Shown in pieces: positions 10,701 through 47,069 of a stretch of 47,069 nucleotides of DNA. Source of the DNA: Ectocarpus siliculosus (taxonomy: Eukaryota > Sar > Phaeophyceae > Ectocarpales > Ectocarpaceae); NCBI GenBank assembly GCA_000310025.1, contig FN649740.1, forward strand, positions 1,302,261 to 1,349,329, read 5' to 3'. The translations under genes were made by a program, and so were the position numbers. Below the pieces are notes generated by a model, which saw only the letters and a list, made by a program, of their open reading frames with translations, did no database searches and was not told where the DNA came from. The stretch's first letter is position 1. Each line of letters opens with the position of its first letter.

Positions 10701-11736
10701 CGCTCCTGCCCCCGTCGTGGTGACGGTAGCCGTCCCGGTGTCCACCCCCCCCGCCGCCGCCGCCGCCGCCTATTCTACTGCCGGACGACCGGCGACTGTT
10801 GTCTTCGTTTTCGTCTTCGTGGTCGCCTCTTCGGTTCGTCTGCCCCCCGCGGGAACCGTGTCGCCCATGAGGTACTACCGCGTCGCCGTGCTGAAAGCCC
10901 GGTTCCAGGTATTGGCTGCCAGAAGGGCAGGAAACAGCACGGGCGGAGGAGGACGGGAGTCTCCGCGGTGTAGTATCTGAGGGCATGTGATCCTCGGCCT
11001 GGTTGCTACTGGTACTCCCGCGCCTGAGGATGCTGCTGCCACTTTCGGCGGCGGCTGTTGCTCTCCTACTATATCTACCGTCGGTGGCGGCTTTACCGCT
11101 GCCGGCACCCCCAACCCGCATGGAGGAGCGTGTGGGGGCTACCTCTCCTCTTCTGTCTGCTCCCGAACCCCCGGCCATTCCCTTGTCAGCCGCCCCTTTC
11201 CGGTGGCCTTGCCCTGGAGCACTACCACGAGGGGCTCCCAAGCTTCCTGTCGCTGAGGATTCTGCTGCAGACGATGCCGCCGGCTCGAACCGCCCAGCCT
11301 CGTAGGAGGCGATGCCGCTGCTGCTGCCACTCCGGCCCTTAGGCGGAAAGGCACTCAACCCGCCTTGTCGCTGCCTAACCGACGGCGGACGCGAGACGGG
11401 AGAGGAACCGCGCGGTTGTGCCGGTTCATGGAATCCCCAAGAATGCGTGGCTGTCGTCGCTGGCATCGAGCCCAGCTTCCTGCTTTCTTCGGCCGGACTC
11501 CCCCGCCTCTGCTGCGGGCGCGCTCCGCTGATGCTAGCGTTGGCCTCGCTGCTGCGTCTGAGCCTATCCATGCCGCTGTGATGACCGCCATGGAGCGCCT
11601 TTCGCAGAGCGCTTGGTCGGGCATCCATCCCGGGAAGGTTCTCCGATCCATTTTGCAGCTGTTGCTGCAGTCGATGACCGCTCGACCTATTTTCATTTTG
11701 CCGCAAGGGTTGTGAATCGTGACTGGAATACATCAT
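7736..11736 (-). CDS. ubiquitin-specific protease (USP/UBP, peptidase C19) with long disordered N-terminus
   Basis: This thiol protease removes ubiquitin from proteins. Three exons on the minus strand, 11736-9796, 9318-9256 and 8896-7736, all join in phase 0 and give about 1,054 residues. The first 570 or so residues are Ser/Gly/Arg-rich with poly-Gly tracts and look disordered. The catalytic domain then starts with the Cys box GLQNLGNTCFMNACLQ (nucleophile near residue 580). The QQD motif in YGQQDCQEFL crosses the exon 2/3 join. A CLTCG ... CTRCRK zinc-ribbon pair and HLKRFQY follow. The His box is GGLHGGHYTAHC (His near 997), and WHTFDD supplies the third catalytic residue near 1023. All catalytic elements are present, so an active enzyme is expected. 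A poly-Gly, Gln and Pro insert lies within the domain between EFLRFFLDGM and QISRLTAEQQ. Closest in layout to USP2/USP21/USP8-type domains; substrate unknown. The start is the first ATG of the open exon and could be spliced upstream. Confidence 0.92.
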
Positions 11737-14303: not shown

Positions 14304-17300
14304 ATGGAAGCATCAGAGAAACCGGCAGCGGAAGACCGGGGCAAGGAGACCACCGCTGCCGTCGCCGAGGGCACAGGCATCGATGACTTCGACGACTTCG
14401 ATTCCTTTCTCGAGACCGTGCTCTCTGACTGCGATGAACCCGGCACGGCGGCTGTCGCGCAATCAGCAGTAAAACCTAGCGGTAGCAACCCCGAGAAGGG
14501 CCACGACCAGCAGGATGCAAAGGGTCAAGAAGGAGTGAATGGGGACGACCCTCGAGGCTTTGCACCGGGCAGCGGAGGCATTGTCAACGTACCATTGACG
14601 GCAGCCGATATGGAAAGCACTTGCACTACAGGTACGCCTCCCAGTTTACGCTGTGATTGTGCTTATGGTCCCTCTACTTGCGTGTACCGTCCTGTTGGCA
14701 CGATTAGACTTCTCGCCGGTCGTTGTTTAGCCCCGCACGAATGTTGCCAAGGGTTGCTTGAAAGCCGGTGTCGAGCGTTCGTACATATTGTCAGTGGGAT
14801 GTTTCTGCATGGTCGTTCATCTCGGTTGCGACGTAAGACTTACCACCGCAGATTGATATACACAGTGAACCGTAGTAAATAAAGCTTAGGCGATCGGATA
14901 CGCATTCGTGATCAATCGCCTGGACAGGCGGAACATCAGTGAACGGCCTGGTCTGCTGCCCCTACCAGAAGCACCTGATTGAGAATGCTCGAGCTACAAC
15001 GATGAGGAACTTAAAGCCGCACTTACTGTCTCTGGCAGGTGTTTAGTAACTCCAAGCACGACAAGTCTAGTATTCAAACAACGAAACTCACCGAACCACA
15101 CACACCAGCCCAACCAGAAAAACATCACATGTGTGTTATGCAGGCAACCCTTTCTTTCCCGTACTTTCTCCCCGGCTAAAAACGATCCGCACCGTCCCGC
15201 GACACGGCCCTCCTACTACCGCAGACACCGACAGCGACGACCACCACAGCTCAAACTCTCTGCATGAATCGGACTCCTTCTTTCCGCTCCCCCTGCCGAC
15301 GGCATCCTCTTCTTCTGCCTCCCTCGCTGTCGGTGGTCAACGGAGCGTTAGCGCGACCTCGACGGCAGCGGGCTGGGGGGGACCGGCCAACAACAGGGGC
15401 AACAACAGCAGCAGCACGCAGTCACCCCAGCTGGCCCTCTTGTTGCCGTTCGTGCCGAGGCTTGTGAGTGGCGTTGTGGAAGTAGGCGGCCATTTAAGAG
15501 TCAGTATGCACGCATTTATTTTCAAAACGATGGGTAAACAACAAAAACGGAGAAGATTCAAGAGTTGAATAAAATCGATAACTAGGGCGGCGAAACACCA
15601 CGGGGGCGGACGGGTTGGGCCAACTAGGTTGAAATGCATCAATGGCATTTCTTCCGACGTCCGGTTCAATTCCCCAATTCCTTGTGCGTCGTATCTCCAC
15701 TCATCCAGTCGTTCCTCTCTCTGCCCTTGCGTTCTAATCACATGTTGGCCATGCCATGATCCGGTCAACTCTCCTCCCTGCCCACCTTCTCTGCCGCCAA
15801 TCTTGTTATGCTTCCCGTACCGCACCTCACACCCCTTTCCTGCTCATTTTCATTCCGTGGTACTACAGGTTCTTCAGATGTTTAACACGGACGCTCCTCA
15901 GATGCCGACTGGGCCGATGCACATGTTGCTCGACGCCGCCGTGGGACTTTTCGACGTGTCAGGTTTTTCCAAGATCGCAGATCGCCTGGAGAAGGAGGAG
16001 GCTGACGGCGGCAGCACGGTACGTGTCGACACGTGTGCATATGAATTACTCATCGTTTGAACATCGTACGGCATGGGAAAGGAGGTTGACGTTCTATGGT
16101 TGGTACACCAGGTAGGTTTGGTAGAGTGCAGGTTGATAGACCAGGAGAGTGGCCGCCACAGCCGCCGCCGCCGTAGACAGCACCTCCGCCGCTGCCGTCC
16201 ACGCCTGTAACGTAGTATCTGCCTCCGCCGCCACCGTTGTAGTCTTTCATCCCTAACACGTGTCCTTCACTCGCCCCTCCACCCTCAAAGCTCCCCCTCT
16301 CCGATGCTGTCTGTGGGTGCCCTTTTAGAGCGCCGTTGAATCCGAGGGGGTGGCATTGCGCCGCAAAGGTTCGATGATGCCGAGCCAGAGCATGAGCGCC
16401 GACCGAATGAACAAGACGTTGTCCTCTCGTCACAGCTCGGTGGTTTCTGGTCTGGGCGAGTCGGGGTCAGTATGTTAACAACGCGGCGGTGTTCTGGCAC
16501 CAATGACGGATGCACATCAGTACTTTGACCCCCGTTTGGACGAAAACTGTTGGATGCAATACCTATCAGAGTAGCTCTCGAGCGCTGAGAATTTCATTCC
16601 CCCAAGCTAAACGTTCACAGACTATTTATTTTCTGTTCGCGCATTTCTGGACACGTTCTCTTAAGGCGCGATGCGAGACCCACTCGACTCCGGGCACTTT
16701 TCGGCATGAGTATGGCGCTGGGTGGGCGGATGGGGGAGTCGAGGACCAACCTTAAGAAGGGTTCGGCAGCAGAGCGGCTTACCGACTACCTCAACTACAT
16801 TCTCGGTATGTTGAGCGACAAGCACTTGCATAAGAGTAGCGTGCGCTGATGTAGATAAAAAAAGTGAGGAAGTATTCCGTGTTAGTGATACGTTCAGAAT
16901 TACTGTAAGCGCTATGATTTGGCTTGTTCTTAGCTCGATCGATTCCGCCCAAGGCGGGCTTGAGTAGACTATATGTCTCTCTACGTCATCGCCGGTGAAA
17001 ATCGGTTGTGCGTTTGTTTCGCCGGAAACACGTCTTGCTCGAGACGAACAGCGTATGCATATCATTGATGGAGAGAAGATCAGTTTGAGTTTGTGTTGAT
17101 TGGAGAAGCATGCAAACGTCGATGGCCGACACTATGGTGACGAATATAGACAGGCTGATTAGTCACGCATGATCTCAAGCAGGCCAACTGTATGCGCACT
17201 TCCCTGTTTCCCCAAAAACTGTTTCTGCGGCGTTTTCTGCGTTTGATACCCCGGTCTTTGCCGAGGAATCGGGACGGAGAGAGATCTCACTCGCCCCCGC

Positions 17301-20300
17301 TTGTTGTCGGTGTCTTTGTCACTGCTGTTCTTCGTCTTCTTCTTACGTTCAGGCCTCTTGACAGATACAGTGGAAATGCACGGGGGCGATATTCTCAAGT
17401 TTGCCGGCGACGCCATAATCGTGTGCTGGTCTCCCACCAGGGAACTTGGCATCGAGGTTTGCGAAGGGGGAAGGACAGTGTTAGCATCAGGCTTAAGACG
17501 GACTCATTCCTGGATTTTTCTGGTAGAGGTTGGGGGTTCGCTCGGCGGGTTGGTGATCGGGTAGCGGTGAGAGTGACGGTCATGGCAATTGTAGGGCTTG
17601 TGGGTGTTCGGGTGAAGACTTGAGTTTAGGGTTGGCGAAAGCGTGTCTAGGGTTGGGATCAGGGTCAGGGCTCGGTCAAGACAAAAAAATCATGACACGA
17701 TATGTATCAAGTGAAGATTTGAGTTAGGGTTGATGAAAGTGTGTCTAGGGTTAGGGTCAGGGTCAGGGCTCGGTCAAAACAAAAATCGTGACACGACATC
17801 ACGAGAGCGACGATGTAAGAAGTGACGGGTACTGAAACACGTCTCGTGGTAGGAGGAGGCCTTGATATTCAATGACAACGGACCGCATCAAACGCAGTGT
17901 TCAACGTGATGTAGCTCTGGAAAGATAGACATTGTCGTACGCGATTATGATGTGTGTGCTCGACCCCGTCCTTCTCTCCCGGCCCTCAAAACGCCCGTTT
18001 TGCTCAACCACGAAACCTGGTAGCTTTGCTGTCAATTGTGACCGGTTCACGACTGTAGAGAGAAAGTCTGCAGCGAGATCGTAACGCGAAAAAGAGATGA
18101 TAAACCGATCGTAATACCAGAGGCAAACAAGTGTCGTATTGCGTATTGTAGAACGTGCTCTCCCTCCACTACAACTCGGGAGCACCAGTGGCACACCTGT
18201 GGGATCAGAAGGGAACGAGATCATTCACACTGCAACAAGTGTTGCCGGGTTTCGTAGCTGCCTCAATCCAATAGGCCATAGATGTCGACGTGTGCGAGTC
18301 AAAGACCACATGAATAACCTTTGGTCTTATCGTCGGTCGGCTTGTTTTTCTGCCGCTCTGCCGAAATCATGACGTGATGCATGCGCATGACATCATTTAG
18401 CCCAGCGAAAGGATTAGCACCGGGAAACCTGGGGGGGACCAGCTGGAAATCCCATGCCTCAGGGCCGTGCTGTGCGCTCGAGATGCCATGCAAACCTGCA
18501 CGCAAAAGGTGAGTTTGCTGTTTGGCTTCCTTTCGTTGGATGTTCTAGAAGGATGTGTCGGTGTCTTGGTTCGTTTTTAGAAACGAAAACTTGCACTTGT
18601 GCGGCTTTGTTCAGGATTTGCCATGTTTTCTGAAGGGCAGTGCAAACGGAACACGGAGCAGTGCTTAAACGTCTCCCCTGCCCTCCCGGGTCAAGGACGC
18701 CGGGGAAGCCGGGGAAGGCACTATTTGAAAGCGGAGGGAGAAGTCGGAGCATGAAGCCTTATTTCTGCATGCACATTACCTTCGCGCCCACGTAGCGCGT
18801 GGGCGAGAAGAATCAGTTATTCCTGGTCTCTCTCCCGGGTATCTGTTGGCCCCGACCCCGCCCAACGGCATTCCTCTCCACGTGAAGATCCAACTCAACT
18901 CCCACACTTCAGCCGCAACCGAATCGTCGTCACGAAAGATGCGGAAATTCGCTTCGGCCAAACTAAATACTTCATAACCAGTATGAGCAAGGGAAAACAT
19001 CGGGTAATACCCCAACCCGTCTTCGCAGTTGCTCAACTCTGCGGACCCTGTGATGTCGAGCCTGGGGCTGCACATTGGTCTCGGAGCCAGCAAAGTTTTG
19101 GCGGGACATGTCGGGGGCATCGAGAACAGGTGCGCAACGCCCTACACTCCACACGTACAATTTCAGCTGTTCGTTGCATTGTTGAAAGGTTGCTGTGCTA
19201 CTGACGACACACGGAGTTCTTCCTTTTGTAATCCTTATAGCAACGCCTTATCAGCCACCGGTACACCCTGGATACGTGTATGTCGCACAACGTATCCTAT
19301 CCTCCTCCTGGATCGCAATCCGAACTCAACATCTCCACAGCAGGAAACGTTTTTTGTGTCAGAAACAGCGGCGCTGCACGACGAGAGCATTGCAAATGGG
19401 CAGCGCTCGGTAGTAACCTGCTCTGGAAAAATATAGCTCGAGAAACTGACCTAGGAATGGTTGTAGGCGACCACCTAACATGCCCTGCCATGTAATTGTA
19501 AGGGCAGCTTCTATTGTGCCACTCATAAAGGGGAGAGTAGGTCTGTGGTATGTGGACTGGACGCCCTTCTCGACCTGAAGACAAATCCGGTTACCTCAGA
19601 ATTAAAAACAGTGAGAAACGTGTGGTATGTTGTTATTGTGAAGGTGGCAAAGAGGCCGCAACCGTATCGAATCGACCCCATTTTAAACAGATGTTGTACG
19701 TCGCTCTCGTCAATAATAATCGCTCGCGTGAATCAACAGGTGGGAGTTTTTCATAACGGGGGAGGCGTGTGAGGAGATGAATCGCGCAGAGAAGGACGCG
19801 AGCAACATGGAAATCGTGTTCTCGGGAGCTGTGGGAGACTGGATTCGCCGTTACAAGGGGGTGGGTGACTTGCTTCATAGGATATGCATATGACAACCTC
19901 TCCGTCACTCTGTGTGTACCACCGCCCCTTCACTCCCCTCACGTTCCCTCCCGCCTTCTCCTCCACTCTCCAGCTTGCCGTCTGCTTGTAGCGCTCTCTA
20001 TCGTTCTCTCAGCCATACTCCTCTTTCTTTGTCTGTGTTTCTGTGCGTCTCTTGTTGCTTGATTTGTCAAGCTCCTCTCTGCTTCTTGTCTGTCTGCTTT
20101 TTTTACTCTTTTGTGGAGGGTCGAATTCCAGAATCCCAGCGGTGATGGTGGCAATACTCGTCATCATGGTATGGTTACGGCCAAGAAGATATTTCAGCTA
20201 AATCGTGGGAGGAAGAACTGTATCGGCGGCACTATTATTATAAGAGAGACTAGTTGGTGGCATTACACTTCAACATTGCAGATATCATGATGACTCATGA

Positions 20301-23300
20301 TAGAGAGAGCCATCTACTACACGAAGGTAGGACTCCTCTCGTCCAGAAAGATGAGCACATAAACACTACGGTACTAAACTACGTAGTGGTGTCCACGTTT
20401 TACGGAAGGAACGTACTCCACTGAACACGAAAATGCCAACGGGCACAGTAGTTGCCTCTTGCATGCATGCTCACCCGTACTCTTCTTTCACAATGTACAC
20501 GATAACACTATTGCTCTCAGCCAAACGGGTGTGCGGCGGAACTGGCGACGGTTCGGCTGGAATCGGGCAACGAGCGCTTGGTGTTCTTGGAGTGCCCCCC
20601 AGAAAACCTCCCCCGCGTTCTGCCTCACGCGTTGTTGACAAACGACATCATGTGCAACGTGCTTAAGGTGAGAGAGGGAAATGAATGAGGTAGGAGAGGA
20701 GGGTTGGGCTAGGCACACAATATTTTCGCCTTGCAGTTAACCTACTACTTTCTGTCGACAGCAGGTGGTAGTAGTCGTCGGACTACAGACCGTCGTCGCA
20801 CGTCCGGGCGAAAATACGATGAGTTTGACGACCGAAGAGCCGACGAAGGCTACAGAGAGGGAGAGGGGGAGGGCCGCGGAAAGGGGCGGGTGGTGTTTCC
20901 TCAAAGGACGGGCAGACGTCTTTGGGAGGGAGGACAACATTCACCATTCACGACTGACTTTCGAAACATCTTCTAGGGACGTTCTCTTGCACTTCCAGGC
21001 AGACAGAGGAAATGTTTATGAGCCTGTTTGTTGATCACCTGTAGGTTGCTCTGGTTGAAACTTCTGGTGCCACCACGGTGGGTGCTGGCGCCGTTGCCGC
21101 TACGTATCATTCGGAATGAACGAATTTTGGAGAGCGAAAGTGGTCGGAAAGGGCCGAACATCATGTAGCAGTTACGTTTATGCTACGGCAAACACCATGT
21201 GTATAAGTTGCATATTCCTCATTACAAAAAATAAAAAAAGGTCTTTTGTCGTAGAAAACAGTATGCCAGTGCGACTTGTGTCTTGTACTCTTCTGTACAA
21301 CATCGTCTGTGGGAAAACATCGCCTGGCGCCCTTTGGAATTCCATCTATCAACCTTTATCTATCTACGCCATTTTTTCCGTGAAAGGCATCTACCTGCGC
21401 TGTCACCTGCATTTTTCACCTCGGCTTCTTATCATCCCTGGCCATCGCCATTGTATCTGCCTGCGACATGTACGTTGTCGAACAGAACGTACAGCACGCA
21501 TATTGTCTATGGTGTGTACTGTATCTGAGACATCTCCTGTGCCTTTACGTAATCCCGCATCTATTTGCGACATAATCGGTGTTGATGCCAGATGTACATT
21601 CCTCAGCCCGTGAAGATCAACCTCAAGGACGGCGTGGTAGAGACCGCGGGGGGCATCCGCAAAATCACGGTCGTTTTCATGGAGCTGCTTGACCTCGAGA
21701 TCGCCGTGTCCGACGACAAGGACACCCTTGATCAGGTAGATTGCGGTTTGTTCCGGAGTAGCAAACGTTCAGTGAACATCATGTAGAGCAGGGTCGAGGT
21801 AGTTGGGCAACAGACCACCACCAACTTCGATACGATTTTCCTAGACTGCTCTACATACATCGCCGGAGATCTCGCACGAGCTTCCAGCTAGCTGAAAGAC
21901 CTTTTAAAGTTGACGCCGCGTTGATCCGGGTTAACCGGAGAACCGTTTCTCGGTTTAACCGGATTCAGACAACCAGTATCTTGCAGGTTTAGCCGGATAA
22001 CCGTTTACATCGAATTACTGCTTCAAAGCTTGCTCAAAACCGCTTAACCGGAATTAATTCCGTTGAACCGGATGAAACCAGTTCACGTATCCCTCTGTAG
22101 ATGTTCATTATAGAGCGTCTGTCGTGCTGTGTTTCTGATTGAAGACTGCATGCAGCATAAAGTGCAGTTGTAGCACGATCGAACTCCGACCCAACTTTGG
22201 TGGAGTGAGTCGTTCACGATCTTGATTAATTTCTCGTTGCGCCACAGGCGTTTTGCGATTTTTGTCCTGTACGCGTATCACGGGGTGGTGTGTTAACGCG
22301 TTGCCATCGACGGATGCATGGTTGAGCGATAGACACCGACCGCATCAACGGCGCGGTTGCGGCGTGACAGGTGAACAGGACCGTGCGGAAGATCCAGGAG
22401 ACGGTGTGCCACTATGACGCCACGCTTCGCCAGTTCATCGTGGACGACAAGGGGACTGTTGCTATCGTCGTGTTCGGTCTCCCTCCGATATTTCACGAGG
22501 TAGATCGCGTCACTGTTCCCCCATCAGGATTACGCGAAGACCTTGGTCAGGATTGTTTTGTGTAGAAAGCCTGCTCTTCCTCTTGTCTGTCGGTTGTCTG
22601 TTGTCTGATGTCTGTTGTCACATGAATAAAAAGGTTCTGTCTGCGTAACATCGTCTTCAGGCGAAGATACCAAACGATTTTCGTATCAGAAAAGTTTCCT
22701 ACTGTTGTGTTCTTATCCCTTACCCAGATCATTCAATGTATGTATTGGACTTGGTCGGGTGAGGCCTCCTGCGCCGGCAGGAGGGCCTCGCCATGAAGTA
22801 ACCCTTTGGGCTGGGCGCTAAGATGTTCCCAGCCCCAAAGTGTTTGAATTATCCGTAAGTTCATGAATATAATACGTATTTTTGTAGGGAGGGTAGCATG
22901 GTCTCAAATATGTTTCTTCTCCTCTGCTCCGGCGTGTTTCGTAGACAAAAAGGGGACTAAACTAGGTAGAATCATTTTCCAACATCCTTCATGGGATATA
23001 TGACTCTTCCCGATCTCGTTCCGGAATCTGGATTCGCCTCGAACCCGAGATTACGAAAGAATTTCCGTGCCACAAGAAAATATTCGTACTTCGGGCTGGG
23101 GTCGTTTCATTGCCGCACAAAGTTTAAAAAAAATCGAAAAAATTCGAAAAACAATTCCTCGACAACCGTATTTCGACGCGCCCGAAGTGTCGGTACATTC
23201 ATGGCCATACCGTTCAGTCTGACACAAAGGAGATCTGCGGTAAACGCAGCCAGTTTTTGCCACCAGAGAGGTTCGGCAACCCGTTCCCTCGTTGATATGC

Positions 23301-26300
23301 GAAGTCGAACTTTGATTGTCACGAGAACTTCTCTTGTTGTTAGTGTTACGACCGGCATACGTATGCACGTCGAAGTAGCATGAACACAACGCAATGATAA
23401 AGGTCGTGTAGCGAATACTTTCAATAACCAAAAAAGTGTCTCAAAATATATTTTGTATGCCTTTGAAAACGGTATTCGTTGTCCGCCTGTCGTTTACCCC
23501 CTCCATATAGGATAACGCTGCTCGCGGTATCAATCTCGGGCTGAGGCTCCTACGTCAGGGAGTGCAAGCGAAAATAGGGGTCACAACCGGATCTGCATTC
23601 GCCGGAGTCATTGGTGAGTTGACAATTATGCAAGACATCCCTGTCGAGTGATGTTGCAGGTAGTGAAACCGTTCTCTGGCCAGCTTCGGTATTCCGAATT
23701 CTTCTTCGCAATCTGCCATGGAACTAGTCAGAGACGAAGATGACACAAGACACACCAAAGCCCCCCTCATGGATGGATAACCTATTTTCCTGGGCCGATT
23801 TTTCCATAGCGGGACAGGTACCGGTGGTCCCTATCTTAGCGACGTTGGGGGACACTTCACGAAACTCTTGCTGAAAACATTTTGCCGTTCGATCGCGTAG
23901 TCATATTTTCAGGGGAGATAATCCCGATGTCAACTTCAAGGGAAACCCCGAGTGGGGGATGGTAAAGTTGCACTTCACCAGCGGCGGTATCAATAGATAG
24001 CAATGGTGATCGGGGTAGCCTCTTTTCGTTTCAGAAACGCCAAATAAATCAATGTCGAGAAAAGTACCAAAACCTGGGAGAGGAGTGGAGGAGGACGTAC
24101 CTCTTTTGCGCACTACTGTAGCACTCCATGACCCATTTGGGCCTTGGAAAGCAACGAAGCACCCGCCCCTCCCGGCCTCTCCCACATTAAACTTGACTTG
24201 TTTGGAAAAAATAGAGGTGTAAAGAGAGCACCACCCCGCTCCCGACGAAAACGGCAACCAACATGTATGTTCCCCCGCCCTGAATCCTCCCAAACCATTC
24301 AGCACATGCCCATCTCCCCACCTTGTATCAAACAAGGGGCTGCCTCTCGACAAGAGTACGCTGCGGTGGGGGACGCGGTGAACATGTCTGCGAGGCTCAT
24401 GGGGAAAGCGCCGAGGAACACGGTTCTGTGCGATGCGAGCACGGCCAAAGAGGCGGAGGACGCATTTTCTTTCAAGGAAGCCATGCGAATGAAGGTTTGT
24501 TGTTGGCGTGTATATGTGTTTCGAATTGGTACGAAGAGATTGATGCAGCGGCAGTGAGAGCAGCAAGAGCGCCAAAAAACAACGTTAACGCCAGCAACAA
24601 CAGCAGTATTGCAAGTGTCTGCTCGCATGCATAGGGTGGTTGTATGGTTGATTATTCTGTCTAGTTCGCAGTAGAGCACGAGTGTTCGTTCTTGAGGTTA
24701 TATGTGCACAGTAGTGCGTAAGAAGTGGGGCCTCTGGCTTTCAAAGGACACGAGAACCAAGGCGACATTCGCGTGGGAGTTTCGTTTCTCTCCGTCTCCA
24801 TTGTTTTTCGATGTGCACAACATCCCCCTGACCAAAACGAACTGCTGGTAGTTATGGGTCCTCTTCGCACAAATATCGATGGCTACTGTAGTGTGTGGTG
24901 GTGCTAAGGATAGCATCGAAGCCTTCAACAGTTATCACCACCTACTACCCATAAACTGCTGTTGTCGACTCGATGTTTCTCTTGTTTTGTGTCTGTCGAC
25001 GACAACGACAGCCTGCCGCGTGTGGGAAGAAAAAAAAAGAGAGTATCGACAGGAGCAGACTCACTCACGGCTTTGTTCGTTTCAAGATGTAGATGTTGTT
25101 GCGTCCGGCGTATTTCACGTGAAGTATTTTCTTGCGCTGAAAACACCAACAATTCGTCACCACAAAATAATTTTCGCGGTCACACCAATGAAGATGACAC
25201 GTTTACGCCTCAGGTGAAAGGCAAGGACGAGCCGATCGCCGTGTTCGAGCCGCTCAATGCTGGGGCGGTTCTCCGCACGAAAAGCGCGAAAAACAACTTT
25301 CTTGACAGAGGGGACCACGCCGATCATCTACAGGTAGGAAATACCGTAAGCTCGCCGCTTAACTAAAAGGTGCTGAAACGTTGACAGACAACAGCGGTGC
25401 ATTCCTGGGCAACGATCATGAGTCTCCTGGTGTCTGGTGGTTAAGGGGAAGAATCGTGGCAGAACCAAAACGGTCCTATCATTTGGGTGCCTGCTGCAGG
25501 TGCGTGTTTGGAAGGTAGGTATTCGTCTGTACCCATCACCTTTTTGTGGCTCTTCGCAGAGGTAATTGGTTCCCCGAATGGATTCATTCAGACGGGACGA
25601 ACCCAACACAAGAGGCAGAAAACCATGCTTTCGAATAGACCAGGTGGCTGTTGAACCACGGAGACAAGCGTCTAGACACCTGATGCCTTGCAGAACTCTG
25701 GGCCAATCATGGCACCTTTGCCGCCACATGTCTTGCGTGGTATTTACAAGCATTGCACATGTGAGGTGTTGTGGTTTGCGTCGTCTTTTCTGTCGTGTTT
25801 TTACCTGTGTACATCCTTGAGCGGAAGCCCCGAAGATGGAGCGCTTTCGAGAATGAAGACAGGCGACAGACCAACAAGTAACCCTATACCCTATCTCTCG
25901 CTACATACATGCGCACACCTCATGTCACGCACGATGCGTCCCTCGCGTCTTCAATATTGTGGCGGCTTGCTTTCATGTGTGCCTTGAGCAAAACAGGAGA
26001 TGATGTCGAATGCCCACAACCCAGTGGGCACAAAAACGGTCCTCATCGAGGGAGAGCGCGGCAGCGGGAAAAGCATCCTTCTCTCGAAGGTCGGCTGGCT
26101 AGACTATGGCTCGCAGACTTTTGTTGCTGTGTTTTTCTTGTAATTTGTGTGTAGGTTACGTGAAATCATTCCGTTCCGGGACGCCTCGATATACACGTTT
26201 CGTTTGGTGTGGCTGCCGCGACCACGCACACACCCCTTGCACAAAGAACCTTTAACGAGGATCTGTCGCAAGCGAGGTTTAGAAAGGGGACCTTATCTCA

Positions 26301-29300: not shown

Positions 29301-32300
29301 GACCGTTGTAGTCGATTTCAACACCTAATCCACCCCCCCCACAAATCTACCGGCACATGTACTTAGTTTTTTGTTTCAACATTGCGATATTACAATCATG
29401 AAGCTGTGCGTCCAACTTCAGACGACAATTACAGAACAAGAGGCCACTCGGATCTTTCCCAGCCCCGTCAACCCACACTGCCTTTTCTGTTTTTTCGCAG
29501 TTTTTCTCCACGACGTGGAAACATCTGATTACATCTCCGAGATACGCCCACCAGTCAGAAAAACATATCTTTCCCGCCTGCGTTCCCTCTTGTCCCCGTC
29601 AAGGTATGCGTTGATTGCACCTCGGTACAATCCGAGATTGAAAAATTTCCCTCCACTTAGCATCGGCCAATAGCACATACATGAGCATACACGGGCACGA
29701 GTCGATTCATGCAGCAATGAGCGTAACATCCCTTGTCCCGACAGCGCTCATTTTTCGCGCCCCGCTTTTCTCCTCCCGCATACTTTCAACGGAGTTCAGG
29801 ATGCGGCGGTGTCCGCAACCCCGACACCGGCCAACAACATGACAAGGGCGGGCTCGGCGTTCAGGTTGGCCGCAGTCGGCGATGCCACGAAAGTGAACTC
29901 CGTGGAAGAGGGGAGGGGCTGCGGGGCGGCCATCGTTTTGGACAACACGCAATGGCTGGATCACAACAGGTACGTACTACATCGTATTTCTCTACGGTAG
30001 CTCTGGTCTGTGGTTGTTCCTCATTGGCTGTGCTGGAAAAATCGTTCGGTTTCGGCTCGGGTTGTTTGTTCTATGGTGCTGGTTTGTCAGGAGTCCGTCG
30101 ATTGGATGGGGCGCGATCGTAACAGTGATGCGTATCGATACATCGAGTTGAAGAGAACAACCATTGGCCACATAGTACACTTTGTTTTTTTTTTAAGTTT
30201 TGCACATCTTCGTCTGTGAAGACGGACAGGACTATGAGAGAGCACATGCGGTGAATGCCACGCACACGAGGAGCCACGCTGGTTTCGCCTCTTCTGACCC
30301 AAGCAAACGCAACAAAAGTCGTCGTGTCGTTGTCATCGTCGCTGCTACATGCTTGATTGACTCCACGGCTTGTGCGACGGGCAGCTGGGAGCTGATGCAC
30401 CTCCTGAGGAAAGCTCTGCCCGGGATGCTCATCTTCGCCGCCTTCCGACCATTCTCGGAGATGAACCTTAAGCACACGATCGCCCTCAAGACTGTCCCGG
30501 GAACGCTCAAGATGAACATGGGCAGGCTGACGGCCACACAGGTGTGTGCGTCTCCCGCGGAAAGGAGAGTGCAGGCGGTACGATCGATGGCGACGACTCT
30601 GATGGTGATGGCCAGGTGGTGGTCGCAGCAACGCTTGTCATGAACTCGGGGTAAAGGATTTCTCCCCCTCGAGCCGATGCACCGCTTCCTTGAACCGATT
30701 GACCAATCGGCTTTGTATAAAAGGGGTAGGTTCCTTTGTTGTACACAGAGATTGGTGGTACACGCACAAAGGGATTTTGCTCCCAGATAGCGGACTGCCC
30801 CACCACTATGTCGATTCTTACCGCTCCAGGTACACTATTGTAGCTGCTCCATCTTCGAACGGCATCGCCCGCAACCCCGTTTGACATGCTTGCCCCTTAC
30901 CTCTTGCCTTTTTGTCATGAAACGCACCAACCAGGTGATGCTCATTTTGTCCGACAGCTTCGGAGTGCAGAGGACAAGTGAAGAGCTCCTGGAGTTTCTC
31001 GAGGTACACTACCTCACACCAGTATATCCATGACACTCTTGCCGTACAACCGAACGATAAGCCTTAGGGTTCTTGGGCAAGAATAACAGCAGTGACTGGT
31101 GTACAGGGGGACCACCACACACACTGCCTCTAGAATGGAAACACTAGACTTGAACAACAAACTCAAACATGTCGCGTTTTTCGATGCTAATGTGTGTTGG
31201 CTGCCTGCAGGTAACCGCCAAGGGAAACCCTCGAGACGTGATCCACATGATGGAGGATCTTTTCAAGGAGGGGTTCGTGGAGGTTAACTTGGGCGCCGTG
31301 GTCATTCTCAAGGAACTTTCGGAGAACTCTCTCAAGATCAAGGTGGGCGCATACGTGTGCTGGCTGCGAGGATGTAGACAGCGTCATGGGGATTCAGGGA
31401 GAAACGATATTGGGGAGCGTAGCTGAGAGCTGTCTCAGGTTGTCATGAACACGTTGTTCACTCAAAAATATATGCTACGTCTCGGCTTTTTCTAGACTAC
31501 GTGCGTCGTGAAAAGAAAAGGTCATTCTACCTTTACGTTCCTTTTTCCTTTTTCCGCACCCAACAGAAACGCCTCCGGCAACTTCGACTCTTTCAATAAT
31601 CTGCATCGGCTATGTCTGCCTAAAAAAACTTGCTCTGTACTTCTATGTGCCTTGCCGCACACCACGCCCCCCGCTTCCCGTAGGATCGCAATTCGCCTCT
31701 CCTCTCTCTCACCCCTGTTCTACATATCGTTCCGGATTTCCTACCGAAACAGGATCATACTTCGGCGCCCGTGATCGCTAAGTACGACCAGTTGACCAGA
31801 GGAACGCAACAGCTTGTGCAAGCCGCCGCGGTGATCGGACAGGAGGTGGGAGTGTTTTCCTTTTGTGTTGACGGCGAGAAGAGAGAGGGAGGAAACTAAG
31901 TGGGTGGCCTCAAGGCAAACAGCCACCTTGCCGTGGTATTTCGCCAAGATCTACGATATTTAGGGTTGGGTGCTGAACTCGTGCATGTGCTACAATACGT
32001 TAGAACCACAAGGCGGTTCCAAGGAATCCTCTGAGAAGGTACCAGTACCGCCAGCAGTGCATCTCGTGTTTTAGCAGAAACCCAGCTGACCGTAACCGCT
32101 TGTTTAACGGAGGACGGGGAGGCGCATAAACACGAGCCCTTTCCGAGAGTTGGGGAGACCGCGAGAACACTGTAACGTCCTGTGATACTAGCGCCGTGCC
32201 CGATGCAGAAACAGTGGTCGGCCCTCCTAGCCACGACCAGCTCCTTCCTTTTCCTTTTCCTTTTTTCTGGTTTCAATGAATATCAACAACTTCCCGAACC

Positions 32301-35300
32301 GTGTGGATAGGTCCCCCTCGACCTCCTCGTGGACGTCCACTCCATGCTGACGCCTTCCCGGGAGAACAATCACCCGGCGACCTCATCGCCGACGTCTTCT
32401 AGTGCGTCAGACGACGCTATGGTGGCGCCCGGCTCTCCGGCCGAGGGGGGAGGGGGCGGGGGCGGGGAGAGAGACGACGTGGATGCGCAGATCAACACGC
32501 TGGTGAGGGTGGGGCTCCTGGAGAGGAGTTCCCCGGAGTCGGTGAGGTTCGTGGCGAAGTACATGGTGACGGTCATCTACGACATGATTCTGCACTCGAA
32601 GAGGCAGGACATGCACAAGGTGCGGCCTCGTTTTGTTCCGTTCAATTTTCTGTCGCATGATCTCTGAGTAATTGCAATCTACTTATCGTCTTGGTGGCGG
32701 CCATCTGAGGAAACAGTTTGCGCTCCGCAAGGAAAGCGTCCATACAATAGACTTCAATGGGCTTGGAATACTACGGGTTTCCTCCATGCTCGGCGTTGAC
32801 TTCATCACCGGAGTTAATAGCAGATTTTTTTTATGGGTACCTATGACAGCGTGGCGATTTCGATTGTAGAGAGAAACACCTTTAATGATTTTTTGTACTT
32901 AGTCTCCACTTGCAATGCGCGGGTGTCGATTCCTTCACCATCGTACCCACGGCTCTTGTGTCGAGCCTCTCTCCTTCCTATGCCCCACGCCCCGGCGCTA
33001 ACACATTTTCTTCCCATTCTCCACGTACGTGCGTATACCCGTGTCCAGGAAATCATATTGTGGTACCTGACACACAAGTCGTTTGTCGACCTAAGACCGC
33101 ACTTCCGCTTCCTTGGGAAACATGCCATGGTGAGCGATTTCTTCCGTTTCTATTTCGGAGGGGGGGCGAGCAACCCAAAACTATCGTACAAACCTGAGGA
33201 AACCCGGCCGGACATGCTGGAAACTGTTCCAATCACACAAGTCACAGAAAACCAGACAACCCTAAGATGTACCACTCTTAAGAAGCAAAAATAGAGTCTA
33301 CCGGCGAACAGAAGCCCGTTTCATGAAACAGCAAGCAACTTACCCGAGCGACGATCCGAGTAGATTCGTCAACTTCATGAGTATCCCCGAAACCTCGGAT
33401 GCCCATTTGGACTGTAATAAACTCAGGAATGTTGCTGATGTACGTACTCCGTGTACGCAGTATAAAATTTGTGCCTGCGGCAAAGAACAAACCTTCAAGA
33501 AACAAAGGCTCAGATTTCGGCGATAACTGAGGAAAATCGACTAAGGAGCACACCTCAGCCGTGGATCTTGGTCTATGTTATGACCCATGCTCGACGGTGG
33601 TGACGAAGCAAGAAGTTGAGCCTCCACCCCAAATTGACGTTTCTTAAACGCGGTCGCTAACTGTAAGGGTGGCCAAGCGTAAGGTGGACTACATTTCGGT
33701 TGCATGTTCAACCCTCGCCTCTAGCCCACCCGTACATCCATCAAAGTTGTGTACAAAAGAGGCTAGTCTCGATAAGCCTTTGAACTCTGTTCCAGACAAC
33801 AGACACGAATTGGTCCCGTCCGTGCACCGCGTGCGTGTTGAGGAGTACCACGCCAACAACCTTTCTGCACGCGTGCGTGCGCGTGCGTACGTACTACAGG
33901 CAGCGGGGGATCAAGACTTGGCCGTCAACTTTCTGGTCATGGCGGCGGAGGTGGCTATTGCGTGCGGCGACCCGACCGAAGCGCAGCTGGCATGCGGTGC
34001 TGTCACGCAGGCTGTGGACGACTCTGGCGCGTCCGGCCACCTCACACTCCTCGATCAGGCATGTCTTTGTTCCTGTTGGGGGGGGTGGGGGGGCGTACTC
34101 TTATGTTTTGCATGCCTTAGCGGTTAGACCATTGACCACGCGTCCTCGAGAGGACGGAGCATTGTTCCCACAGGACCGATCACCGATGGCCAATCGTTCC
34201 TTCCTACTTTGCCAAAGGTGGCTCAAAAATGTCTTCCCTAGTCTATCTATCCTAACGATATCACTTCCCGCCTTTTCAAACCACTTCCTATTTCCCAGTA
34301 CAGCTACCGCCCTCTCCTCTCTATTCCATGCCTCAAACATCTCCCTGTACCTCCTTCTATTTTTCCCAGCTCAGTCATGTACACTTCCCTCTCCTTTTCG
34401 TACAACTGACATTCTGCGACTACATGAACCCCGTCTTCGCACTCGGAGTCGCAATTACATTTGAACATGTCGTCTTCGTCGTCTGCCGTCCTATGTCTTC
34501 GTCGACGTTCTCGAAGGCCTATGTCCCCGGTCCTGAATTTGATCTTAAGGTTTTGTGTTCTGCATCCATTGGTCCATGTAGGTAATCCTTGAACAATATT
34601 CCTTCTTTCAACATTCCGTACACTTCTGGACCCTCGTTATCCTTGGTTTCTTTCCTTAGATTATCTTTTTCTCTCTCGGCACAAGCAACAGATACCTTCT
34701 CCTTGAACCCCTGTAGACCCTCCGTTTCCAGCGTTTCACGTCGTTTCACGTTTCCAGCGTTTCATCTTCGTCGATGTCGAACCCCTTCCATACGTCCTCT
34801 ACAACCCTGACCCATTCCGTGGGTTGTCTACCCCTCTTTTTTCTTGCCCATTTCGCCTCCCATACTATTCTCGGCATCCTCTCCTCTCCCATCCCGCACA
34901 TGCGATACTGCCATGTCAGCGTTCCTGTTGGGGGGGGGTGTACTCATGTACTCATAATCGTGCATGCCGTAGTCGTAAGACCATTGACCTCGCATCCCTA
35001 CAAAGCCGGGACGGAGCACGCCGGGTTCTCACCGGACCAGGCTTTTACATCACCAAGCGCGAAGCGCCGTGAGGCATTCGGCGAGTCGCATGGAGGGTGC
35101 GCTGCATCCTGCTAAGGGTGTTCGGCTTCTTGTGCTTACTTCCTTGCGTACGGATGATAGCTGCGTATGACTTTATTTATTTTCTGGTGCTTTCACTTCC
35201 AGAGACAGTTGTAAGCACTGTGTAACTGCCTCGAGGGTGCTTGACCATTTTAACACAACGTGGTGCGATCATCCCCCTTACGCGGAGTGAGGGTTCTCGA

Positions 35301-38300
35301 CCCCGCACAACATGATCTACTCGACCACCATTAATGGTTCGCGCAAAAAAAAAACGGAGGTAAAAAAAGCCGGTAACCTGGTTGCCGAGCTCACGAAGTG
35401 AATTGGTGTTTTACAACGTCGTTGCCAAGCGACGAAAACCCAATCCCGATGGCAAACACCGAGGGGGAGGGGGGGGGGAACAGGGGATACTTTTGCATGG
35501 TGTTGTTTTGCTACAAACACCTTTCTTATTATTGCATCATGACATTTACCATTTGTATGGCTGATTGTTTCCACAAGGTGTCTTTCGTTCTTATAGCCGA
35601 ACAACAAAATAGTATTAAATTGACTATACGCCGCCGGTTTCGAGTGAGTCGCGGAGACAGACATTGGATATAAACATGACCAAGGAAAAGTTGCAGGTTT
35701 CTGGTTATTTTTCGAGCTTCGCGACAGAAAGTCTGTTGGCAACACATGACCAACATATTTGCCAAAAACAGATTATTTGAAGGAAACAAGTACGAAGAAC
35801 GACAATAAAATACCACACAAGGCACCAAACAGTGTTGCGAGGACCAAGTTCCACCGCCCCCGGATGAAATTGATCCACAGGTGCTGCGGGAGACAAAGTT
35901 CCACCTCCTGGTGGGGCAAACCGCAATCTTGTCTCAAGACTGGGAGAGCGCTGAGATGTCGCTCCAGCTCGCCGTCGATATGTCCGGGTACATACGTGAA
36001 GTGTAAATTCAATATTGCTGTTGGTACCTTTCGTCCTGTTGTTGGAGGTAGGAAGTTACCGGAAAACACTAGCATGTGTGGTTTTGCGGTAGATCGCGGT
36101 CGACACGTCGGTGCAAGAGTTACGTTTGATCGTGTGTAGATGTGGACGCAAGGGTTACTCGTTTTTTTTCAGATAGAAATGTTTCCGCGGTCTAAAGGTA
36201 GATGCCTTTTTTTGGTTCGTTTCCCTTTGTTCCACTACTTTCTGCTTCCTTAAACTAACCCGTCGCAAACACTATGTGTCCCGATGCCGAATCAAACCCA
36301 CCTTTCAGCGTGGACAACATTCCTAAGCAGAGCTTCGCCGACAAGATATTCTCTCCGTGGAAAAATCGACGGAAGGAGGGCCACCGTAGGGGGGGAGGCG
36401 GCGGCAAGGGCACAAACCCCTATCGATGGATTGGCTACAACAACAACAACGCTGGACCAACAGCAAAGGGCAAGCTGCGAAGAACAAACACCCTCACTTT
36501 ATACCAGAGAGCCGAGCAGGCTGAGTTAAGCCACCGGAGAGTTTCGGACGCTTCTACGCAGGTATAACGTCTCTCTCTTTGACGTCATCACATGTGTTTT
36601 TCCCGTGAAAACTCCTGGCTTCTTCAATATCTCGCAAACCGTGAGGAACATACATGCAGCCGTTCTTCTATACTGCATTGCGTTAGACCTTCCCCTGATA
36701 CCCTCTCTGACGAGACGGATGCCTACTGCTTCATAGAAAACGGCGAGTCAATTCGTCAATGCATACCACGCCCCCCTTATCAATCTGGACCGCCCAATGG
36801 TCTGCACGAAAACTACAGCTACGCATGACAATCACTGCTGTGTCTCGCTAAATAGTTTTGCACTGGGGAACAGTTTTCGTTGCGAGGGTCACACAGAACA
36901 GTCCAACACGTTTGCCAGTGATTTTTTGCACTCAATGGTGGCAAAGTCTGGAAATATTCACGCGGATGCAATACAACCGGGTTTCAATTCGTGACCCTGG
37001 AGTGTAAGCAGCTTCATCTGCGGTAACAACCAATGACCCGTTGTTGCAAAACCGCTGTGTGTGTTGTATCACTCAGCGATATAAGTACCTGATGGCGCAT
37101 TGTATGTTACGCCCAACATTGATATTCTGCAGTCCGATGAAAGCACATCGCACCGCGAGGAGGTGCTGGACCTGAACAACGTGGAACGCTACGGGCCGTG
37201 CGGCGTAATGCTCAAGAAGTGCGGCAACGACGCCAAGGTAAGTCCTCTTCGTGTTCTCACATCTTCCTTGTCTTGCTCCCTCCCTCCCCCCCCCCCTCTA
37301 GCCAATGATAATGAATGACATCATTCGAAGGAAAAGCTATTGAACTGATCAATAACGCCAGATCATTGAATGTTATTCTGTTGTAGAGGTAATCCTATTT
37401 GCTGACCAAGCAGTGTTGTATGACCGTCGTATTCCCTGTTCTTGGTTTCGTGTCGTAGCGGTTCTACCCATTTGCAAGCAAGATGGTTGGCGCCCTAACT
37501 CGTCAAAGGTCGCTTCTACCGCCTACTGTTGCCAGGACGCAAAAATAGCGCCCTTGACAAACACGATCAACTTCAGTCCTTCGCCATGTGCGGGTCGATG
37601 TGTGTCCTCACTTGTTGCAACTGAACCATACGGCAAATTTCTCCACCAGCGGGTATTCTAATTGTTTGGAGTAGTACTTTTGCAACAAGATAATATTCGG
37701 GTGCAGGATGCATGCTTCGAGATCAACATTGCAGCGTCTAATGCTTCGTGTCTTTGAACTCAGCCCATTCATGATAGGAACGGAGTACCTCATCGCTGTC
37801 GTGCCGTACTCGTGATAGTATCCCTCCCTGTAGTTTGCCCCTTGCTTATGAGTGGACTGGTCAGTGGCCAGAACGGTGGTGCATAGCGTCAGAACAAGAA
37901 ACTAACAACATCAAGAACAACAACGCCAACATCTCCACGACAGATGCTGCTGGGTCGATTGAACACGTACCAAGAGGCGACGAGGAGCTTCCACCGAGAT
38001 CTCCTGACGGACAACAAGAAAATCATCCAGGCACACAATCAGGTGGGGTCTACATTTCAATGCAGAAAGCGTTGTGATGAGTAAACTGCCGTACAACTTA
38101 CCCGCTCTAACGGGCTGTTTCAGTAGAAAAGCGTCCAACAGCAGTACTACAAAGGCGAGGATTAATGTTTTTGAGGGGTGTTATTATTACGAAGACCCAT
38201 ACTAACGCCGGGAGGTTGATGTCTTGAACCTTGTCAATCTTTTGCCGCGCGGAAAACATGAGAAGGTGACGATACACGTACATGACCAGGTGTGGCTAAA

Positions 38301-38978
38301 TGGTTAAACTCAAGGACTTTACATTCACCCCCAAAGATCCTGCCTATAGAAGGAATTCCTCCTTGGAAGAAGTTTCGTTCAGATGGCGGTCATGAAATGC
38401 CGTTGAAGAAGATCACCCTTGCGGAGCACCCTCATCGAAGAGAACACTCAAATCAGACTTGAATGTCCCTTCCGTTTCCCTCAAGAAGTCTAGGGGATCC
38501 ATGGACTCCGTTCACACGGATTGAGTGGCGATACCTGTCGACGATTCTTATGGAACCAGCACGCGCCGTCCCGTTTCCCTTATCCCGACCTCCCCCTTCT
38601 TGTTGACCCGCCTCCGGTATTGTTCTCAAGATTCCACCCCCCCCGCATTACTTTGCAACGTTGATAATATGTTCTGTTCGCGCCAGAGAACACGTGTTTA
38701 TCACGCACTCTGTCTCCCTACCTTCCCCCGCCACCCGCTACCTCAACGACAAAAACATCCAGATGTTCGTGACGTCGGGGGGGATCCTGTCGGTGTCCCA
38801 CCGAACGGACCCTTCGGTGCTGCCGCGTTACTTGAGGGGGAACAATCACATGGTGATGGGGTTCAAGGACGCCAGGAACAGTCTTCGGCACCAGCAGCAG
38901 CAACAGAAGACGCCCCCTGCCCTGCAGATCGCCGTCTCCCCGCGCTTGTCTAGCAGCAACCTTGGACTTTCACGTTAG
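14304..38978 (+). CDS. soluble-type adenylyl cyclase (ADCY10-like): two cyclase domains, ATPase module, TPR-like C-terminus
   Basis: This enzyme is expected to make cAMP from ATP in the cytosol or organelles, in the bicarbonate-responsive class IIIb family. I trace 35 exons whose phases chain without a break to 1,717 residues, near the roughly 1,600 of animal soluble cyclase: 14304-14631, 15144-15463, 15869-16018, 16329-16465, 16711-16805, 17353-17456, 18443-18508, 19029-19129, 19740-19860, 20521-20667, 21592-21735, 22371-22499, 23511-23613, 24337-24494, 25214-25333, 25997-26089, 26514-26606, 26841-27041, 27198-27479, 27859-28032, 28368-28478, 29800-29969, 30385-30541, 30935-31003, 31211-31342, 31753-31845, 32311-32619, 33049-33129, 33900-34058, 35881-35987, 36309-36561, 37133-37237, 37459-37485, 37944-38042, 38763-38978. 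Residues 1-216 are Ser/Asp-rich and look disordered, and no membrane segment is seen. The weakest parts are the donor after 34058 and the 27-base exon at 37459. Domains are described in separate entries. Confidence 0.88.
15869..19860 (+). other. first cyclase catalytic domain (C1) of the cyclase gene
   Basis: Seven exons encode about residues 217-474. LFDVSGFSKIADRL carries the first metal-binding Asp (near 245). HGGDILKFAGDAIIVCW carries the adenine-contacting Lys (near 359) and the second metal Asp (near 363). LGLHIGLGASKVLAGHVGG and WEFFITGEA continue the fold as in soluble cyclases. Both metal Asp residues are present, so this half can supply the metal site. The exon at 16329-16465 adds a Ser/Met/Arg-rich insert of about 45 residues between the two Asp motifs, which looks like a disordered loop. 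Confidence 0.9.
17612..17803 (+). repeat. two tandem copies of a 99-bp unit with telomere-like motifs
   Basis: Units start at 17612 and 17711, each opening with GTGAAGA and containing TCTAGGGTT, CAGGGTCAGGGCTCGGTCAA and a GACACGA block. The AGGGTT/AGGGTC runs resemble degenerate plant-type telomere repeats. It lies in an intron of the cyclase gene. Confidence 0.85.
21927..22075. repeat. cluster of AACCGG-core motifs
   Basis: At least seven AACCG-type cores, several as TTAACCGG or GGTTTAACCGGA, occur within 150 bases of a cyclase intron. Spacing is irregular, so it is not a simple tandem array; many cores are near-palindromic. Confidence 0.7.
22582..22621 (+). repeat. short TTGTCTG-type tandem repeat
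   Basis: Four imperfect copies of TTGTCTG or TGTCTG follow one another in a cyclase intron. Confidence 0.7.
22758..22793. repeat. bulged inverted repeat, hairpin A
   Basis: GAGGCCTCCTGC and GCAGGAGGGCCTC pair over 12 bases with one extra base on the 3' arm and a very short loop. It lies in a cyclase intron next to hairpin B. Confidence 0.8.
22804..22840. repeat. bulged inverted repeat, hairpin B
   Basis: CTTTGGGCTGGG and CCCAGCCCCAAAG pair over 12 bases around a 12-base loop. As in hairpin A, the 3' arm has one extra base. It starts 11 bases after hairpin A. Confidence 0.8.
25214..31342 (+). other. STAND/AAA-type ATPase module of the cyclase gene
   Basis: Eleven exons encode about residues 702-1235. 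VKGKDEPIAVFEP closes the cyclase part and FLDRGDHADHLQ opens the ATPase module in the place of the family's FxGRxxE box. The Walker A motif is IEGERGSGKSILLSK (Lys near 766), and the Walker B-like strand is AAIVLDNTQWLDHN (Asp near 1107). SWELMHLLRKALPGMLIFAAFRP follows, as in soluble cyclases and bacterial AAA-16 proteins. The exons at 26841-27041 and 27198-27479 add an Ala-rich tract and a Gly/Ser/Arg-rich stretch that look like inserts. The module probably regulates the cyclase rather than catalysing a separate reaction. Confidence 0.85.
34060..34192. repeat. long direct repeat flanking a retrotransposon fragment, left copy
   Basis: This starts at the exon end at 34058 and matches 34911-35054. 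Shared blocks include GTTCCTGTTGGGGGGG, GCATGCC, AGACCATTGACC and GGACGGAGCA. The copies have diverged substantially. Confidence 0.7.
34193..34910 (-). mobile_element. degraded non-LTR retrotransposon (LINE) 3'-end fragment
   Basis: Read on the minus strand, split frames give KFRTGDIGLRERRRRHR, then a C-x-C-x3-C-x4-H-x4-C zinc finger with VAECQLYEKERE, the kind of motif that follows reverse transcriptase in LINE elements. A further frame carries FEAWNREERAVAVLG. Frame changes and stops break the reading frame, and no reverse-transcriptase core (YADD-type) is present, so this is a truncated, dead copy. It lies antisense inside a cyclase intron. The family name is not resolved. Confidence 0.65.
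34911..35054. repeat. long direct repeat flanking a retrotransposon fragment, right copy
   Basis: This is the second, same-orientation copy of the repeat at 34060-34192, on the other side of the LINE fragment. It could be a terminal repeat of the element or an older repeat family. Confidence 0.7.
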
Positions 38979-46747: not shown

Positions 46748-47069
46748 CTGGGGGGGGGGGGGGGGGGGGGGGCCCCCCTTTATTTTTTTAAAAAAATTTG
46801 GGGGTAAAACCTTTGCCCCCCGCCCCCCAAAAGAAAGGGGTTTTTTTCCCCAAGAACCCACACCCGGGGGCAAATCTTTTTTTTTTTTTTTCCCTTTTGT
46901 TTGGGGCCGGGGGATAAAAAACCCCCGGTCCCCCCAAAAAGGCTCCCGGGGGGGAAAACCCCCAAGGAAAAAAAAAAAAGGGGTTTTGGGGAAAAACCCC
47001 CCCAAAAAATCCCCAAAAAAAACCCCCCCGGAAAAAACCCCCGGAGTGCTATCCCGGGGGTTGCCAAAA
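46748..47069. other. homopolymer-dominated contig-end sequence, probably unreliable
   Basis: After a run of 23 G at 46750-46772, the sequence is almost only short runs of identical bases (CCCCCC, TTTTTTT, AAAAAAA, GGGGG). This is unlike the rest of the window and resembles low-quality read ends. Long frames here code for Gly, Lys, Phe and Pro only and should not be annotated. Confidence 0.8.

Follow-up and report, generated by a model that had tools for sequence, protein, structure and literature searches.

The window analysed here, a stretch of 47,069 nucleotides from the brown alga Ectocarpus siliculosus (contig FN649740.1, positions 1,302,261 to 1,349,329), contains at 14304-38978 of its plus strand a spliced gene which is confirmed, as far as sequence comparison reaches, as a soluble adenylyl cyclase (sAC) of the ADCY10 family. 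With some reserve, we favour the reading that its product is an active family member in an alga, which would be controlled most likely by pH rather than by bicarbonate and would probably form cyclic AMP (cAMP). The pH is regarded as the likelier signal because the Lys corresponding to human K95 is kept and position 176 carries Asn, as in sea-urchin sAC. Bicarbonate sensing is not the leading reading because both R176 and T405 of the human enzyme are substituted. Bicarbonate sensing has been viewed as the conserved role of soluble adenylyl cyclase, and an alga using inorganic carbon seems a natural host for such a sensor; the sequence, however, points the opposite way.

Domain architecture and family membership

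The window protein contains Guanylate_cyc in two stretches (Pfam, E 3.4e-12). Directly behind the second cyclase domain (C2) follows an ATPase of the STAND/AAA_16 type, recognised by its P-loop GERGSGKS and by a profile match which leaves an insert at amino acids (aa) 804-976 unmatched; the Pfam match to AAA_16 (E 1.5e-7, 32.5 bits) lies 0.1 bit below the cut-off of 32.6. Among the 19 distinct solved sequences found at E <= 0.01 the top four are ADCY10/sAC chains (best E 4e-17), the matches of which cover both C1 and C2, and the next solved chain is 2w01 (E 3.5e-9). After removal of an insert in C1 the ADCY10 match improves to E 5e-21 and spans the D47 motif as well. No NCBIfam model matched the protein above its cut-off.

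A profile made of 32 bacterial tandem open reading frames (ORFs), taken from stop to stop, 1,001-1,575 codons in length and comprising no eukaryote, matched the window protein with 431.5 bits in all (E 4e-133; Z=1, filters off). The match falls into five pieces within aa 166-1487, namely 166-236, 320-803, 977-1033 (weak, E 0.014), 1103-1283 and 1321-1487. The best of 20 shuffled sequences reached E 0.023 and the reversed sequence E 0.28. Scored separately, C1 obtained 91 bits, C2 187, the ATPase 72 and the tail 51. The bacterial profile gives no support to exon 1, the insert of exons 4-5, aa 804-976 (exons 18-19), aa 1034-1102 (including exon 22), aa 1284-1320 and exons 32-35; the N-terminal 185 residues yielded no row from it, and the last 224 residues (exons 32-35, aa 1485-1708) showed no homology to it (E 0.085, negative score). 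The sequence-only reading of this DNA had called the C-terminal part TPR-like. It matches the bacterial profile over the helical tail (aa 1321-1487), but no TPR is significant in Pfam (TPR_4 E 0.079).

Descent was addressed by a tree of 40 domains, comprising C1 and C2 of the window protein, of human ADCY10 and of 18 bacterial proteins hand-picked to span a first tree. All C1s and all C2s are separated by one branch (support 100/100), and none of 500 label shuffles gave a value as low. This split implies that the tandem is common to alga, human and bacteria and that the window protein belongs to the sAC family by descent. The earlier proposal of an ADCY10 layout in one gene, with C1, C2, ATPase and helical C-terminus, is borne out up to exon 31 by Pfam, the solved chains, the bacterial profile and the domain tree.

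Active site and choice of substrate

The equivalents of the metal-binding D47 and D99 in C1 and of the catalytic N412 and R416 in C2 are all kept; the bacterial rows keep them in 71/71, 71/71, 71/72 and 72/72 cases, respectively. As in other members of the family, C1 and C2 would fold on each other into one active site, to which C1 would supply the two metal-binding Asps and C2 the catalytic Asn and Arg found by alignment. From their place in the layout, the STAND-type ATPase and the helical tail behind C1-C2 probably adjust the activity of the enzyme or hold it in place.

In place of the base-reading pair K334/T405 the window protein has Gln/Ala, which is unusual; the product would still most likely be cAMP. 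That the cyclase makes another choice of substrate (cyclic GMP, or both) is quite improbable. Such a choice would fit the Gln/Ala pair seen in the alignment. In the bacterial rows Ala at 405 (6/72) is always joined by Gln at 334 (6/6; Gln at 334 occurs in 11/72), the same pair being found in L065, L030, L031, L032, L047 and L016, and this joint recurrence has the look of a functional alternative, not of decay. On the tree, however, where Ala at 405 requires at least four changes with the window protein counted in, a sign test of the coupling is not significant (four pairs only, median p 0.25), so the coupling itself is without proof. Guanylyl cyclases read the base by a Glu/Cys pair, from which Gln/Ala differs, and non-standard pairs are also known from bacterial adenylyl cyclases, e.g. 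Rv0386 with Gln/Asn.

The bicarbonate/pH site

In human sAC bicarbonate is held by K95 and R176; R176 pairs with D99 until bicarbonate draws it off and D99 is freed (PMC12250328). The window protein has kept K95, and its switch residue R176 is replaced by Asn, so that it carries the sea-urchin-type genotype K95/N176 and not the mammalian-type pair. The assignment rests on an alignment which is free of gaps between the anchors Gly169 and Ser190, common to both sequences, with the Asn codon inside exon 9 and away from the splice sites. M418 is kept and Ile is found at the position of V167. The Thr expected at 405 of bicarbonate-responsive class IIIb enzymes, which is considered predictive of the response (PMC3383692), is Ala. 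As reported for the sea urchin Arbacia, a sAC with K95/N176 is activated by alkaline pH and neither by HCO3- nor by Ca2+; the same study, which refers to 13 phyla and to metazoans and in whose main text the word 'algae' is absent, describes one or both of residues 95 and 176 as neutral outside mammals, with few exceptions (PMC12867704). A strong pH dependence is also described for Plasmodium ACbeta with its two sAC-like domains, the bicarbonate response of which could not be tested there (PMC3383692). Position 176 of the bacterial C1 rows is neutral or acidic in 66/71, Arg in 1/71, Lys in 3/71, His in 1/71 and Asn in 0/71, and K95 is kept in 35/71. An earlier statement that Arg or Lys never occurs at 176 in bacteria, drawn from a first sample of 40 rows with C1, was dropped after this wider sampling. 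By its genotype, the algal enzyme would most likely be controlled by pH like its sea-urchin counterpart.

A mammal-like enzyme, in which HCO3- would be bound by K95 and the Arg following the Asn and would switch the cyclase on, is unlikely. It would agree with the retention of K95 and M418, with Ile for V167, with an Arg beside the switch position and with a similar pattern in the solved chain 1wc0, which we take to be CyaC. Against it speaks that the Asn gives the genotype of the bicarbonate-insensitive urchin sAC (PMC12867704), that the supposedly predictive T405 is Ala (PMC3383692) and that the Arg after the Asn, counted from a shared Gly, aligns with the position of the catalytic R416 in C2 and not with R176. 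Arg is found at this place in 12/71 bacterial rows. On these sequence arguments the bicarbonate sensing supposed in the sequence-only reading gives way to control by pH as the preferred reading.

Several observations weigh against this preference. The Arg directly after N176 might still serve. Chain 1wc0 shows KFVGD and GPSVNIAAR, i.e. Lys at 95, Ala at 176 by counting from the shared Gly, and then Arg, which suggests that a bicarbonate response could be possible without R176. The chain presumably represents the cyanobacterial, reportedly bicarbonate-activated CyaC of Arthrospira and a homodimer, so that its second site would not be regulatory in the same sense and the comparison is loose. A few bacterial rows do have two positive charges at 95/176 (K/R in one, L063, K/K in three and R/H in one, of 71). 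The urchin mutant N198R gained no bicarbonate sensitivity (PMC12867704); the site alone therefore does not decide regulation. The pH profile of the Plasmodium enzyme, with an optimum at 7.5 and a drop on both sides, is unlike that of the urchin enzyme (PMC3383692). The substitutions K334Q and T405A make the choice of substrate less certain; urchin sAC keeps K334 and K144 and the window protein neither of them. Finally, an adenylate cyclase could not be confirmed in the data reported for Fucus (PMC3652789).

Bacterial relatives and the possible ancestral state

A tblastn search of plasmids with the catalytic part, the C1 insert left out, returned 197 records, 18 of them covering at least 80% of the query. 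Whole genomes were sampled with a profile of seven rows reaching from C1 to the P-loop. Matches were found in at least 3/398 genomes of the Ensifer-centred phylum (E <= 1e-40), in at least 27/246 of the Nocardioidaceae-centred phylum (E <= 1e-40; 3 of the 27 with C2 only) and in at least 44/282 of a phylum whose centre, G003, is titled uncultured proteobacterium (E <= 1e-60); these counts are lower bounds, since scoring was limited to 4 to 6 candidates in each genome. Class-level searches around G414 and G429 covered three genomes, identical in both. The loci were taken from the best-scoring places only and some rows are near copies. The matches in three sampled phyla indicate that tandem sAC-like proteins are scattered through bacteria, and conservation of this kind between bacteria and eukaryotes is, by its title, the subject of a 2004 paper cited in PMC3383692. 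AAA_16 lies behind the cyclase in both bacterial proteins examined by Pfam, L004 and L006, with significant TPRs only in L006. Two or three tandem sAC-like matches per genome were seen in 10 of the 44 matching genomes of the G003 phylum. Two pattern-limited scans of viral contigs confirmed no relative, and an initial genome-contig scan confirmed none of 95 stretches. A clade of alga and human excluding the bacteria was neither rejected nor shown (p-AU 0.243, 42 rows), and in a tree of 73 rows the window protein and human ADCY10 are both placed in an unresolved fork.

The window protein adds to a known family, and its setting and genotype make the question of which state of that family is older testable, the mammalian switch residue being absent here and rare in the bacterial relatives. 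Whether pH control represents this older state has been raised for animals (PMC12867704). Tentatively, and with more doubt than confidence, pH control of sAC may be considered older than animals and the bicarbonate-switch Arg a late gain, because a probable alga has the urchin K/N genotype and the mammalian K/R pair occurs in only 1/71 bacterial rows. If this is true, the step from pH to cAMP in sea-urchin sperm would be an ancient module shared with algae that have flagellated gametes, its input being pH and not bicarbonate.

In the brown algae the flagellated gamete is a plausible, if speculative, site of action. Male gametes of Ectocarpus are reported to up-regulate an adenylate cyclase along with a Na+/H+ exchanger and with cyclic-nucleotide channels that resemble the channels of sea-urchin sperm (PMC3879662); for Fucus a male-specific PKA regulator has been described (PMC3652789). 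Among the papers listed, none reported in its title or opening abstract a sAC from an alga or stramenopile together with its residues at 95 and 176; this negative is weak, since the listings were limited in length and most subscription journals lie outside the coverage.

Gene structure

The gene was rebuilt exon by exon from its splice sites (Table 1) and encodes 1,708 amino acids plus stop, all codons being in phase without an internal stop. All 34 acceptors are AG; 33 donors are GT and a single one, that of intron 30, is GC. The introns measure 90-1,822 bases (median 533.5). The GC content is 0.60 in exons (GC3 0.73) versus 0.49 in introns, and 51/70 alternative exon frames contain stops. 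The independent rebuild agrees with the earlier model in its 35 exons, open throughout. The 1,717 residues given there are not reproduced, but the single long open protein is; the difference of nine residues presumably reflects different splice choices. For the start of exon 5 at least two in-phase choices are seen by eye, the frame being open.

It is very improbable that these exons do not make up one working gene and belong to two adjacent genes or to a copy in decay. No homology supports exon 1 or exons 32-35, and the sole GC donor adjoins a repeat block of intron 30; however, no stop occurs across the 1,708 codons, the order C1-C2-ATPase-tail agrees, as far as aa 1487, with that of homologues made as a single chain, and the catalytic residues are kept.

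Intron 30 (34059-35880) harbours direct-repeat blocks at 34060-34145 and 34912-34997, 852 bases apart and 84-88% alike in the reported stretches, with an insertion-like stretch between them; it is the first block that adjoins the donor of exon 30. A transposon protein, considered for two antisense ORFs of this intron, was rejected as no Pfam match exceeded the cut-off. Two near-copies with TAGGGTT/AGGGTCAGGG runs, telomere-like by eye, are located in intron 6 at about 17610-17800.

Table 1 Features of the sAC gene in the window, with the equivalents of human ADCY10 residues
Feature	Position	Strand	Basis
Whole gene, 35 exons, 1,708 aa	14304..38978	+	open in phase; 33 GT-AG and 1 GC-AG introns
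Exon 1, N-terminal, acidic/low-complexity	14304..14631	+	splice sites only; no homology
Exon 2, end (from aa 166) leading into C1	15225..15463	+	splice sites and profile match
Exon 3, C1 start; metal Asp (D47 equivalent) at 15953-15955	15869..16018	+	alignment
Exons 4 (16329-16465) and 5 (16666-16805), C1 insert (about aa 240-317), then start of C1 core; exon 5 start uncertain	16329..16805	+	
Exon 6, C1 GGDILKFAGD; K95 equivalent 17397-17399, D99 equivalent 17409-17411	17353..17456	+	alignment
Exon 7, C1	18443..18508	+	splice sites and ADCY10 match
Exon 8, C1; K144 equivalent is His	19029..19129	+	alignment
Exon 9, C1; R176 position is Asn (AAT, 19780-19782), then Arg (19783-19785)	19740..19860	+	alignment
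Exon 10, C1-C2 linker	20521..20667	+	splice sites and profile
Exon 11, C2 start	21592..21735	+	splice sites and ADCY10 match
Exon 12, C2; DDKG loop; Gln (22431-22433) in place of K334	22371..22499	+	alignment
Exon 13, C2	23511..23613	+	splice sites and ADCY10 match
Exon 14, C2; T405 equivalent is Ala (24360-24362); N412 (24381-24383) and R416 (24393-24395) equivalents kept	24337..24494	+	alignment
Exon 15, C2 end and lead into ATPase	25214..25333	+	splice sites and Pfam
Exon 16, ATPase P-loop GERGSGKS	25997..26089	+	Pfam, motif
Exon 17, ATPase	26514..26606	+	splice sites and profile
Exons 18 (26841-27041) and 19 (27198-27479), helix of ATPase followed by insert of poly-Ala/poly-Gly	26841..27479	+	no profile match aa 804-976
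Exons 20 (27859-28032) and 21 (28368-28478), ATPase	27859..28478	+	weak profile match aa 977-1033, E 0.014
Exon 22, 36 nt	28569..28604	+	splice sites only
Exons 23 (29800-29969, Walker B AIVLDNTQWLD) and 24 (30385-30541)	29800..30541	+	splice sites, profile, motif
Exons 25 (30935-31003), 26 (31211-31342), 27 (31753-31845) and 28 (32311-32619), last part of ATPase and first of helical tail	30935..32619	+	profile
Exons 29 (33049-33129), 30 (33900-34058) and 31 (35881-35987), helical tail	33049..35987	+	profile aa 1321-1487
Exons 32 (36309-36561), 33 (37133-37237), 34 (37944-38042) and 35 (38763-38978), C-terminal end	36309..38978	+	splice sites only; no homology

Other features of the window

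On the minus strand, at 7736-11751, a ubiquitin-specific protease is divided between two long ORFs (UCH domain, E 1.2e-10 and 1.3e-40) and contains stretches rich in Gly and Ser. The end of the window (46800-47069) is rich in homopolymers and gives, from its ORF translations, the impression of poor sequence. A GC content near 52% and long introns, together with this end, give the impression of a brown alga. Within the window neither an Rfam match at the gathering cut-offs nor a tRNA (ARAGORN, bacterial code) was found.

Comparison with known systems

With human ADCY10 the window protein shares C1-C2, the metal-binding Asps in C1, the Asn and Arg in C2, K95 and an identical GGDILKFAGDA block. 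Over the catalytic part, insert and linker left out, the identity is 29%, and the substitutions R176 to N, K334 to Q, T405 to A and K144 to H set the two apart. We assume that the human protein also carries the ATPase and the helical tail behind C1-C2, the solved chains ending at about residue 470. Judged by published residues, the sAC of Arbacia has in common with the algal protein K95, Asn at 176, D47, D99, N412 and R416, but it keeps K334 and K144 where the latter has Gln and His (PMC12867704, Table 1). Plasmodium ACbeta is similar by description, with two sAC-like domains per chain and pH dependence, and differs in having kept the Thr which is Ala here (PMC3383692). The voltage-sensor/cyclase fusions of stramenopiles and alveolates are likewise cyclases of flagellated protists; in contrast, they place a single cyclase domain after a voltage sensor in the membrane and have no tandem C1-C2-ATPase (PMC12223298). 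The bacterial tandem sAC-like proteins (72 rows) resemble the algal one in the order of C1-C2, P-loop ATPase and helical tail, with identities of up to 31% and C1 and C2 pairing domain by domain; they differ in lacking Asn at 176 (0/71) and in being encoded by a single open frame each.

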